DNA of 11,563 nt from the NCBI GenBank assembly GCA_002784795.1, contig PFLZ01000141.1, forward strand, positions 1-11,563. Direction: 5' to 3'. Under the pieces are notes generated by a model, which saw only the letters and a program-made list of their open reading frames with translations, searched no databases and was not told the DNA's origin. Shown here one piece after another: positions 7,199 to 11,563 of the stretch. Position 1 is the first letter of the stretch. Each line of letters begins with the position of its first letter. Source of the DNA: Candidatus Magasanikbacteria bacterium CG_4_10_14_0_8_um_filter_42_12. GTDB lineage: Bacteria > Patescibacteriota > Patescibacteriia > Magasanikbacterales > UBA922. The translations under genes and the position numbers were made by a program.

Positions 7199-8071
7199 AT
7201 GTCATCCTTTTTATCACCAACACAATTGAAATCTCTTTGCGAGACCTATCTCCTCACTCCTTCAAAAAAGTACGGACAAAATTATCTTATCTCAGAAACG
7301 CCCATCAATAAAATGATTGAAGCAGGGGAGTTGACGCCAGAAGACACTGTGGTTGAGATAGGCCCAGGTTTTGGTGTCCTCACGCTCGCTATGGCACCAC
7401 ACGTACAGCAGGTGATCGCATTTGAAATAGAAAAAAAGTTGGAAGCATATTGGGAGGAACAGCAACGTACGTTCAAGAACATTGAAATTGTGTGGGGAAA
7501 TGCACTGAAAGAAATTGGAAATAAGAAATTGTCCGCCCAAGGCGGATCCGCCTTGGGCGGAGAACTCGGAAGTTCATACAAAGTACTCGCCAATCTACCA
7601 TATCAGATTACTTCCAATGTTATTCGAACTCTTTTGGAATTAGAACAGAAACCAGAGAGGATTGTTATCATGGTACAAAAGGAAGTGGCTGAGAGAATTT
7701 GTGCAAAGCCGGGCGATATGAGCGTCTTGGCAATATCAATCCAGTACTACGGAACACCAAACATAGTAACAAAAGTGACCAAGGGGAATTTTTGGCCAGC
7801 ACCAAAGGTTGATTCAGCAGTCGTCTCTATTACGAATATACAAGACAGAGATGATGCAGAGACCTTTTTTCGGTATGTCCGAGCAGGATTTCAGAACAAG
7901 CGAAAGCAATTGTGGAGGAATCTTTCCCAAACACTGCATATCGATGGCGAGAATGTAAAGCGAGTCCTTCGTGATGTCGTTGGGGATGAAAGAGTCCGAG
8001 CAGAGGATTTGAGTGTAAAAAAATGGGAAGACGTCATTGATAGGTTGGAGAGAATAAAGGAGAACACCTAA
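7199..8071 (+). CDS. rsmA: 16S rRNA (adenine1518/1519-N6,N6)-dimethyltransferase RsmA (KsgA)
   Basis: RsmA dimethylates two adjacent adenines in the 3' hairpin of 16S rRNA, late in 30S maturation, using SAM. The product is 290 residues (E. coli 273). Motifs seen: KKYGQNYLI (23-31), SAM-binding VEIGPGFGVLT (52-62), FEIEKKL, catalytic NLPY at 132-135 (ANLPYQITSNVI), FWPAPKVDSAVV, and the C-terminal FQNKRKQLWRNL and VRAEDLSVKKW. Ten residues (112-121, SAQGGSALGG) are encoded by a perfect 30-bp palindrome in the loop before NLPY. The ATG at 7199 is preferred to the in-frame TTG at 7145, which would add 18 residues unlike the family. The leader has no clear SD; TGTTGTAAT (7160-7168) resembles an extended -10. 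It is the last large gene before the terminator at 8138. Confidence 0.96.
   Translation: MSSFLSPTQLKSLCETYLLTPSKKYGQNYLISETPINKMIEAGELTPEDTVVEIGPGFGVLTLAMAPHVQQVIAFEIEKKLEAYWEEQQRTFKNIEIVWGNALKEIGNKKLSAQGGSALGGELGSSYKVLANLPYQITSNVIRTLLELEQKPERIVIMVQKEVAERICAKPGDMSVLAISIQYYGTPNIVTKVTKGNFWPAPKVDSAVVSITNIQDRDDAETFFRYVRAGFQNKRKQLWRNLSQTLHIDGENVKRVLRDVVGDERVRAEDLSVKKWEDVIDRLERIKENT
7532..7561. repeat. Perfect 30-bp palindrome inside rsmA, in codon phase
   Basis: Left half TCCGCCCAAGGCGGA (7532-7546) is followed at once by its exact reverse complement TCCGCCTTGGGCGGA (7547-7561). Each half itself contains a shorter inverted repeat (TCCGCC...GGCGGA). It begins exactly on a codon boundary (codon 112) and encodes SAQGGSALGG. 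Its GC content (22 of 30) contrasts sharply with the AT-rich flanks. It looks like an inserted REP-like palindromic element tolerated in a surface loop. Confidence 0.93.
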
Positions 8072-9049: not shown

Positions 9050-11563
9050 ATGGATAAAAAATTTGGGAAACAACAAAAGAAACAGCGAATTGGGAAATAC
9101 ATTCTTTTGTTTGTTTTGGCATTGCAAGTAACAACCTGGGCAATGATACCACTGCCAGTAAAGGCAATCGGTGGAGGCCCTGTTGTCGTCACTGCTGATA
9201 TCCCTGCGCAAACAAAAAAAATTGGTGATCAAATATCACAAGCTATTTTGCAAGGGTTGCTCGGTTCTCTTGTCAACATGGCGTCATACTTTATGCGTAC
9301 GCTTGCGTATGATACTGCGAGTTATATCGCTGCTGGTGGCAAAGGACAAGGCTCACTTATTTTTGAAAAACCTTTTGATGAATATTTGGCAGGTGTTGCT
9401 AATAATTCTGTTGGGGAAGCAATTGCATCGTTGGGAGAGGGATTTGGTGTGAATCTGTGTGCACCTCCTGATTTGAGATTGCAAGCGCAGTTGAAAGTAG
9501 GTCTTGATCAAATTTACAACCCTGTCACTGCTGCTGGAAAGAGCCTGGGAAAGAGCCTGGGAAAGAGCCTGGGAAATACCGCAGGGACCAGTGCATCTGG
9601 ACCACAAGCACGTTGTTCGTGGCAACAACTTAAAAGTAACTGGAGTGATGGTGTTGACGTAGGAGTGGACATCAATGCTGCAGCTGATTTTGCGTCAGAA
9701 GTAAATGTGACTCAAACAGATTTTGGGTATGCGCTCGGTTCATTCCAACAGCTCGAAAGTCTCAAAAGTGCACAAAAAGAAGCAGCAGCTCTCGAGGCTA
9801 CTATCGGAGAAGGATTCAAGAGTGTGACAGATTTGGTCAGCGGGCATATCAACACCCCTGCAAAAATTGCTGGAGAAGAAGCAAAAACGCTGACAGGAAA
9901 ACATCAAGGTGAACAGAGTACGCAGCAAATTGCAGGACTCTATGCATCATCACTTTGGCAAGTTATCCCAACTGCGGCTTCTGTATTCCTCAATACACTC
10001 ACATCCCAACTGCTCAATCGCTTGTTCAATCAAGGTCTTGTGCCATCAGAGCGTGAGCGTGGGCAAGGAGTTGCTGATTTTTATGCTATCAATTCTGTCA
10101 TTAGCCAACGACAAGTTGCACAACGAGCATTTAGCTTTTTGACTGCAAGGACAGGAATCAAGGATCCCTCAGAATATGATGTTCTTGCTGAATTTAGTGT
10201 GTGCCCAAACAATCCTGGTCTCAATAATTGTGTCATGAATAATGACATGAAGACCGCCATCGACAGAGCGCTGATAGGAAAGCCACTCACCCTGTATGAT
10301 GCTGTGTTCAAAGAAGGATTTATTTCTCCAAATACACCGCTTATTTCACCACGAAGAACGGCAGATAATGAATCAATCACGTGTTATAAAGATAGTTTGT
10401 GTTATTCAAATATCCAAAAAATGAGAAAGGCGCGTATTTTGCCACTGGGTATGGAAATTGCAGCCCAACGGTCTGATCCGGACAACCCTTGGACTATTGG
10501 CGAGGTCTTACAAAAATTTGAAGAGTGTCCAGTACCAAATAATGATGGAACGATCACGCCGGACATTACCAATTTCCCATTTTGTCATCTGGTCAATCCA
10601 AACTGGATTCTCCGTTCACCAAATGCACGATGTGAAAATAGAGTATATTCTCCTGAATTGCTCGTGCCAGAGTCTCCTCGACGGCGTGAAGAATGTGTTG
10701 ATATTTCCACATGTATTACCGAAGACGAAAACGGCAATTGTGTAGATGATAAATTTTATGGATTTTGTACACAAGAAAAAAACGTATGGTTTTTCCCAGG
10801 GGACACCTGTGAACCAGCGTTTGCTTCTTGCAAGACCTATACCAATCAAGAAACAAGTGCGGTGGTCTCATACCTCTCTCGTACCATCGAATATGGTAGC
10901 TGTAATGCCAGTGCGGTAGGATGTTTGCCATATGTAACAGAAAAAAATACAGCAACAACAACCTGGGTGGGAACAAATAGTCTCACTGTAGGTGACAAGC
11001 TAACGGGTGCACAACAGGTGTTGTATCTCAATGATCGCATTACCAATAGAGAAAATACCTGTCCAGACTCTGCTGATGGGTGTACACAGTTTATTGGTGC
11101 CGAGCGAAATAGTACAACTGGTGCATATATAGAGGATGGTACAGGCGCGTATATTCAAGACACGGCAAGACAAAGAAATCTCAAAAAGGCACCAAATTAT
11201 CTCGGGTGTTACGATGAAACGTTTACTGACGCTAGCCCAGAAGTCAATTATCCTACAACGCCACTCGGGATTGCTGCACTGGCAGATGATCCACGGTGTG
11301 ATGCCTACGCATCTGTCTGTCTACCAGAAGAAGTGGGTTGTGAAGCCTATGCACCAGCTGGTGGCGGAGAAGCTGTCCCAGGTGTTGTTGGTGATAACTT
11401 TTGTCCATCCACCTGTGTTGGATACGATACCTTCCGCCAAGAAGAAACCAATTTTGAATCAAGTGAATATCCACTCTATTTTATTCCAGACAATGGTACT
11501 GAATGTAGTGCACAACACGTCGGGTGTGACGAATTTACCAATATTGATGATGTCTCTCAAGGT
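9050..11563 (+). CDS. Giant secreted cysteine-rich protein, N-terminal 838 residues (3' end outside window)
   Basis: The frame is open from ATG 9050 to the right edge with no stop, 838 codons so far. The N-terminus is a classic signal peptide: a KK/QKK-rich lead, hydrophobic ILLFVLALQVTTWAMI (18-33) and cleavage probably after VKA39. Mature residues 62-82 and 298-325 are hydrophobic or amphipathic stretches that could be membrane-associated. A GKSL tetrapeptide is repeated three times (163-174). I count about 27 cysteines, most after residue 380. Four copies of C-x5-G-C-x2-[YF] begin at C618, C671, C757 and C819. It suits an exported, disulphide-stabilised surface protein. I do not recognise a named family; it recalls large uncharacterised surface proteins of Parcubacteria. 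It starts 3 bases after the TSP3 gene, so the two are cotranscribed and may work together. Confidence 0.85.
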   Translation, partial: MDKKFGKQQKKQRIGKYILLFVLALQVTTWAMIPLPVKAIGGGPVVVTADIPAQTKKIGDQISQAILQGLLGSLVNMASYFMRTLAYDTASYIAAGGKGQGSLIFEKPFDEYLAGVANNSVGEAIASLGEGFGVNLCAPPDLRLQAQLKVGLDQIYNPVTAAGKSLGKSLGKSLGNTAGTSASGPQARCSWQQLKSNWSDGVDVGVDINAAADFASEVNVTQTDFGYALGSFQQLESLKSAQKEAAALEATIGEGFKSVTDLVSGHINTPAKIAGEEAKTLTGKHQGEQSTQQIAGLYASSLWQVIPTAASVFLNTLTSQLLNRLFNQGLVPSERERGQGVADFYAINSVISQRQVAQRAFSFLTARTGIKDPSEYDVLAEFSVCPNNPGLNNCVMNNDMKTAIDRALIGKPLTLYDAVFKEGFISPNTPLISPRRTADNESITCYKDSLCYSNIQKMRKARILPLGMEIAAQRSDPDNPWTIGEVLQKFEECPVPNNDGTITPDITNFPFCHLVNPNWILRSPNARCENRVYSPELLVPESPRRREECVDISTCITEDENGNCVDDKFYGFCTQEKNVWFFPGDTCEPAFASCKTYTNQETSAVVSYLSRTIEYGSCNASAVGCLPYVTEKNTATTTWVGTNSLTVGDKLTGAQQVLYLNDRITNRENTCPDSADGCTQFIGAERNSTTGAYIEDGTGAYIQDTARQRNLKKAPNYLGCYDETFTDASPEVNYPTTPLGIAALADDPRCDAYASVCLPEEVGCEAYAPAGGGEAVPGVVGDNFCPSTCVGYDTFRQEETNFESSEYPLYFIPDNGTECSAQHVGCDEFTNIDDVSQG
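9536..9576 (+). repeat. 12-bp in-frame tandem repeat (3 copies plus partial)
   Basis: GGAAAGAGCCTG occurs three times without a mismatch (9536-9547, 9548-9559, 9560-9571), followed by GGAAA of a fourth. The unit is a multiple of three and in frame, encoding GKSL repeated. Perfect identity points to recent slippage or expansion, so copy number may vary between strains. Confidence 0.95.

Follow-up and report, generated by a model that had tools for sequence, protein, structure and literature searches.

The double-hairpin elements of mitochondrial genomes carry two adjacent hairpins in one mobile unit. In bacteria, the Rickettsia palindromic elements (RPEs) are 105-146 bp long, have 12-bp terminal repeats, and are found in 19 reading frames; one tagged enzyme was active, with a changed affinity for its substrate (PMC2229807). 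The short REP elements of the GTAG and CGTC families are palindromes of 20-40 bp, single or dimeric, and some of them lie within repair-protein and tRNA synthetase genes; the hypothesized mobilizers of the GTAG REPs are tyrosine (Y1) transposases (PMC3733652). (Here and below, what we say of RPEs and REPs follows parts of these two accounts.)

We analyzed a stretch of 11,563 nucleotides from a genome of Candidatus Magasanikbacteria ("the window"), in which a 30-bp palindrome lies within rsmA. We put the probability at about 80% that this palindrome is a copy of a REP-like mobile element, very small and non-autonomous, that occurs in Magasanikbacteria and their near relatives. In the list below, a "unit" is a 15-nt hairpin; a "twin" is two units (30 bp), and a "single" is one (15 bp).

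7199 to 8071, + strand: host gene rsmA (ksgA), encoding a 16S rRNA dimethyladenosine transferase of 290 amino acids (TIGR00755); ATG at 7199, stop codon ending at 8071
7526 to 7567, + strand: insertion site, AAATTG / GAACTC around the element; compared with empty sites and for flank preference
7532 to 7561, no strand: twin-hairpin element, a perfect palindrome, rsmA codons 112-121 (SAQGGSALGG); absent from rsmA of three genomes of the same genus
7532 to 7546, + strand: first hairpin unit, TCCGCC-CAA-GGCGGA; a repeated unit, elsewhere alone or paired
7547 to 7561, + strand: second hairpin unit, TCCGCC-TTG-GGCGGA; the hairpin is kept via paired changes in other copies

The initial annotation described a perfect 30-bp palindrome inserted in codon phase in rsmA, and this is confirmed: TCCGCCCAAGGCGGATCCGCCTTGGGCGGA is its own reverse complement and fills exactly ten codons, shortly N-terminal of the NLPY motif. 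(In 11.6 kb of DNA with equal base frequencies, the expected number of perfect 30-bp palindromes is about 1e-5.) Allowing up to three mismatches, TCCGCCCAAGGCGGA matches the window four times (two places, each on both strands) versus 0.10 expected, and none of 200 shuffles gave four or more matches. The palindrome folds as RNA at -27.7 kcal/mol (z = -6.5). It is free of stop codons in all three phases. Because it is also palindromic and 30 bp long, it never shifts the frame and encodes the same peptide in either orientation.

The host protein scores 206.6 bits against TIGR00755 (cut-off 171), and its closest named relatives are from Candidatus Magasanikbacteria. In an AlphaFold model from a 40-row alignment (mean pLDDT 91.2), the insert is modelled as a low-confidence loop, with pLDDT under 50 at residues 113-116 and 118-120. 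This loop lies between a helix (residues 102-107) and the strand that leads into NLPY (residues 128-132).

We compared rsmA orthologues for the presence or absence of the element. Three genomes of the same genus (G033, G034, and G035) encode RsmA proteins that are 85, 73, and 78% identical to the window's, and their genes lack exactly these 30 bases, with no duplicated target. (At the closest empty site, AAATTG is directly joined to GAA.) The 30 bp are therefore an insertion. Among the 120 RsmA homologues listed, of 7,464 found, only the window's own protein matches a pattern for the SAQGGSALGG peptide. A second insertion in the same loop of RsmA, with the peptide SAPGGPALGW, is present in a genome from another genus (G036, locus L294) and absent from the two genomes of that genus that were compared (G039 and G040). 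There, the net difference is 24 bases, not 30, and the loop is also length-variable. The two insertions in RsmA are apparently independent.

Other genes give similar comparisons. The ahcY copy in the window's genome is a variant twin and accounts for exactly 30 extra bases relative to G033, with no duplicated flank. (The match in G034 ended before the insertion site.) With exact 30-bp differences at the rsmA and ahcY empty sites, there is no target site duplication of the kind seen with MITEs. The alaS copy corresponds to 33 extra bases, not 30, relative to the three relatives in the genus, so one more codon has changed there. In alignments to solved homologues, the element appears as a ten-residue insertion in RecA, PcrA/UvrD, and AhcY, and the gap in CTP synthase (PyrG) is nine residues long; the distant alignment for RsmA has a loop gap of six, not ten, and the alignment for AlaS broke off before the element. 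Thus rsmA, and ahcY with a variant of the element, each gained a clean 30-bp insertion without target duplication. That it is mobile is what we infer from these comparisons between genomes.

If the palindrome were instead an ordinary expansion of the RsmA loop, it would have arisen locally, by slippage or template switching, with selection at the peptide level for a linker. The loop before NLPY does vary in length across the family, and the ahcY of G035 (L326) has a different, unrelated insert at the very site of the element in ahcY of the window's genome. But the identical 30 bases are present in three other genes of the window's genome and also in G244, which belongs to another family of the class. 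Because the sequence is shared in this way, we reject a local origin as highly improbable.

The element belongs to a dispersed family. The initial annotation proposed a search for further copies, and TCCGCCNNNGGCGGA has 17 unit matches in the window's own genome (1.04 Mb in 169 contigs), versus none for the reversed control. These represent 13 distinct elements (11 twins and 2 singles). Of the family's 46 genomes, 32 have the TCCGCCNNNGGCGGA unit (the window's own among them), with 1 to 52 matches per genome and none for the control in any of them. More broadly, the C-loop unit is present in 45 of 86 genomes of the order, all 45 of them in two families (f1 and f8), and of the 379 genomes sampled from the phylum, two (the window's own and G244) have the exact twin. 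From the loci that we fetched, which hold part of the search matches, we collected 177 distinct copies: 101 twins and 76 singles. Sixteen of the twins are identical to the window's sequence and 19 are perfect palindromes. In the titles and abstract beginnings listed by searches of an open-access library, we saw no account of this element in these bacteria.

Other repeats occur in the same DNA. At 9536-9576 of the window, a 12-bp repeat, GGAAAGAGCCTG, occurs three times head to tail. The fetched loci from Magasanikbacteria contain further recurring hairpins, namely TGCCTGCCGGCAGGCA and a set with a CTAAAG loop and varying stems. A longer repeat occurs in G037 at L178, L186, L188, L190, and L201: CAAGGTTTAA comes after the single unit, with a CGTAGCTTGCT stretch as well at some of these loci. 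The DnaK and ribosomal protein S5 genes of G037 (L187, 1449-1478; L196, 1541 and 1625) have a second in-frame segment that resembles an inverted repeat, with the peptide (E)SASAKASADK or similar; its DNA pattern had one match in the fetched loci.

The initial annotation treated the palindrome as a single element. Its perfect symmetry stands, but the unit is two abutting 15-nt hairpins, and the second hairpin varies by paired substitutions. To score the pairing, we took every copy of TCCGCCCNNGGCGGA (193 when oriented, with perfect palindromes counted twice) and kept the 91 copies that had the inner GCC/GGC within the next 15 bases; we then scored the outer three pairs. In 38 copies the outer triplets were other than TCC/GGA (CCC/GGG in 13, TGC/GCA in 8, TCA/TGA in 7, CCA/TGG in 4, TGG/CCA in 1, and five others). 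In these 38 variant second hairpins, 108 of 114 outer pairs are Watson-Crick, versus a mean of 61 in shuffles; none of 10,000 shuffles reached 108, although this is not a strict probability, as the rows are related. The alternative, one long hairpin of 30 nt, keeps only 74 of 114 outer pairs in the same copies. Thus, two adjacent hairpins are held by pairing. A caveat is that quasi-palindrome (hairpin-templated) correction can yield paired changes without selection.

We then considered the reading phase of the twins inside genes. We called gene-internal copies by a score of codon usage, for which the long frames of the fetched loci served as training data, and we identified the host genes from Pfam or solved homologues. 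In the strict set of 27 twins, 26 were in phase 0 (the SAQGGSALGG frame) and one was in phase 2. We dropped L249, which precedes the likely start of gyrB; of the 26 that remain, 25 are in phase 0. Seven of 11 borderline twins were accepted. Six of these are in phase 0 (L005, L016, L157, L165, L184, and L286), with hosts that are RsmA, AlaS, a tyrosine recombinase, an RsmB/F-type protein (twice), and an exonuclease/endonuclease-family protein; the seventh is in phase 2 in a Mur ligase (L307). When the other 63 twins were rechecked, two more, in long frames missed by the score, proved to be in recognized genes: lgt (L250, phase 0) and an O-antigen ligase (L268, phase 2). Overall, 32 of 35 accepted gene-internal twins are in phase 0, three are in phase 2, and none are in phase 1 (p = 1e-12 versus one third). 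The proportion was higher before this recheck (31 of 33). The copies in L008 and L177 descend from a single hisS insertion, and if this is counted once, 31 of 34 are in phase 0.

Two of the counted twins (L007 and L232) were included on score and frame alone and have no Pfam match. We excluded L008:2414 and L245 (beside tRNAs, with poor downstream scores), L276:1399 (negative score), L038 (phase 0, no recognized gene), L020 (phase 0 in a 620-residue frame with no Pfam match), L163 (phase 1) and L276:1582 (phase 2), whose frames have no Pfam match, and both twins of L171 (one in phase 1 and one in phase 0, in a frame next to a tRNA).

The hosts of twins include ThrS, HisS, AlaS, a class II D/K/N synthetase, a class I synthetase, ATP-citrate lyase-like proteins (in two genomes), AhcY, a GT4 glycosyltransferase, RecA, NusA, a UvrD-type helicase, transketolase, CTP synthase, S5, L7/L12, FtsK, RecG, a PPDK-type protein, and a DnaJ-type protein. 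DnaK is a host in two genomes, with the element at different places. (In the RecG of G038 (L305, 340-2970), which has a phase-0 element, a PDDEXK_3 nuclease-type match at residues 451-564 lies between the DEAD and helicase C matches.)

Whether the insertion phase is always the same, as the initial annotation raised, now has an answer: one phase is strongly preferred, but there are three exceptions, in recG (L272), the O-antigen ligase, and the Mur ligase. Each of the three has one TCAGCC/GGCTGA half. These exceptions rule out a mechanism that fixes the phase, since insertion itself is not tied to one phase. The bias points to selection on the peptide. The likeliest reason is that the other readings of the core, RPRRIRLGR and PPKADPPWA, would be more harmful. 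Insertions in these two phases would then mostly have been removed by selection, and SAQGGSALGG may be tolerated in loops of essential proteins as a linker that is small, flexible, and uncharged.

For single hairpins inside genes, the phase is mixed: in the strict set, two are in phase 0 and one is in phase 2, and an earlier list also had L022, L026, and L072 out of phase. Two phase-2 twins from G012 (L268, 1987-2016; L272, 1610-1639) have a left flank of GGAAATTG and a right flank of GAAATT in common, which perhaps reflects a longer unit or a common target.

The family of copies, the empty sites, and the phase all support the earlier view of an insertion element that survives inside genes and recalls the RPEs. 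They also bear on the idea of an artefact of assembly or library preparation. The genomes are drafts, each assembled into several to many contigs, but the element recurs in many genomes and at different sites, with structured variants, a preserved frame, and clean empty sites in relatives. We consider this explanation ruled out, for practical purposes.

Could the unit be mainly an RNA hairpin signal? It might act as a transcription terminator, a protector of mRNA ends, or a spacer for tRNA processing, and have spread by recombination or selection, with the copies in genes as accidental by-products. The RNA hairpins are very stable, and many single units lie outside any long reading frame. Also, of the 74 twins outside the strict gene set (including nine that were later accepted as gene-internal), 21 are within 100 nt of a tRNA, versus 4 of 73 such singles (Fisher p = 3e-4). 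In the window's genome, all three of the twins outside genes are beside tRNAs (29-52 nt away). The position next to tRNAs may reflect a preferred target, a refuge from selection, or a part in processing. But the other 8 of the 11 twins in this genome are inside genes, and all 8 are in phase 0; and the empty sites indicate precise insertion into coding DNA. The twins near tRNAs are found on both sides (13 at the 3' side and 8 at the 5' side), unlike a terminator, so we reject a role as a terminator only. Overall, an RNA signal as the main role seems unlikely. (At the Rfam gathering score, the matches in 20 loci were 19 tRNAs.)

A mobile element raises the question of what moves it. In rsmA, the flanks, read into the element, end with TTG and, on the other strand, TTC, with T as the second base in both. 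Across 100 twins, position -2 is T in 74%, position -1 is C or T in 78%, and position -3 is T in 53%, which is a preference for TTY. At least one side has TY in 91 of the 100 (the background is 17% per site). Exactly one side has TY in 58, versus 47 expected if the sides were independent, which is a mild hint of a one-sided target.

Y1 (HUH) transposases of the IS200/IS605 kind do not duplicate their targets, and the hairpin form and short target also fit these enzymes. Among the 14 genomes that have a Y1 gene with a strong match (E below 1e-20; 13 genomes) or in many fragment copies (G033), 13 have at least eight units, versus 5 of 32 others (p = 1e-6, with a strong/weak cut that was drawn after the matches were seen, and with genomes that are related). 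The association is also seen by genus (7 of 8 versus 4 of 24, p = 7e-4) and if any Y1 match is considered (15 of 21 versus 3 of 25, p = 5e-5). For rve transposases, used as a control, the corresponding proportions are 8 of 13 versus 10 of 33 (p = 0.09). (Of the 27 Y1 matches in G033, the majority are incomplete, and many begin at or within a few bases of the start of a contig, as would be expected of an insertion sequence present in many copies at which the assembly breaks.)

A mobilizer other than a Y1 transposase, such as a recombinase borne by phages or plasmids or reverse transcription of the hairpin, is a serious possibility, if short of an even chance. None of the 30 Y1 loci that we examined (of 70 matches) has a Y1 gene flanked by the element, as in a REPtron. 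(The TCCGCC units in these loci are confined to two of them: L214, in a dnaJ-type gene at a distance of about 1.4 kb, and L228, in dnaK.) Three copy-rich genomes (G010, G031, and G045) have no Y1 match, and in the window's genome the Y1 matches are weak (best 1e-10). On the other hand, the exact twin, searched for with R/Y loops, is absent from a collection of viral contigs, and phage and plasmid records gave no match to the element. Copy number is more strongly associated with Y1 than with rve, and the clean insertions and hairpins are as would be expected of Y1 enzymes. Because the examined Y1 loci are not flanked by the element, a Y1 mobilizer is a lead, not a finding.

In the mechanism that we tentatively favor, the element would move as a single-stranded hairpin that is recognized in trans by an IS200/IS605-type transposase, which would insert it next to a short target without duplication; the support for this step is co-occurrence across genomes. 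As a whole, the picture of a minimal transposable element of two 15-nt hairpins that colonizes essential genes of streamlined Patescibacteria, that reads in phase 0 as a neutral glycine-serine-like linker, and that is moved next to TTY in this way is possible, but we would not call it probable.

Candidate Phyla Radiation genomes, at about 1 Mb, are regarded as streamlined. Even so, the 30-bp element is found inside RecA, UvrD, RecG, DnaK, S5, L7/L12, several tRNA synthetases, and RsmA. It is a natural record of sites where essential proteins accept ten extra residues. It is also a small and well-defined substrate with which to study the movement of REP-like palindromes and why a single phase is retained.

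How does this element compare to the known systems? Like the double-hairpin elements of mitochondria, compared here by their description, it has paired hairpins, but their hosts are mitochondrial. The mitochondria of Nematomorpha also have perfect inverted repeats inside protein-coding genes, but these are up to 284 bp long and, in the part of their description that we draw on, are not presented as one dispersed 30-bp family. The initial annotation likened the element to the RPEs, calling it shorter and unrelated in sequence. In-frame insertion into genes is indeed alike, but the short REPs are also among the closest kinds.

Like the RPEs, the element is palindromic and dispersed, and it lies both between genes and in frame within genes for conserved proteins (PMC2229807). 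The RPEs are set apart by their description: they have 12-bp terminal repeats and at least 105 bp, whereas this element has 30 bp in two hairpins and is found in other hosts. Like the REPs, it is a short palindrome that is dispersed as singles or dimers (PMC3733652); the 30-bp twins are within the 20-40 bp range of REPs, while the 15-bp singles are under 20 bp. It differs from the REPs in that it has neither GTAG nor CGTC: its ends are TCCG and CGGA, and its flanks have only the TTY preference. It also lacks, at the 30 examined Y1 loci (of 70 matches), the REPtron arrangement of the GTAG REPs, and its gene-internal copies are mostly in one phase. Given that it has no REP tag, is not of RPE size, and has no flanking transposase in the examined loci, we place it in kind with the REPs and (by their description) the RPEs, but as a new family and a member of neither.
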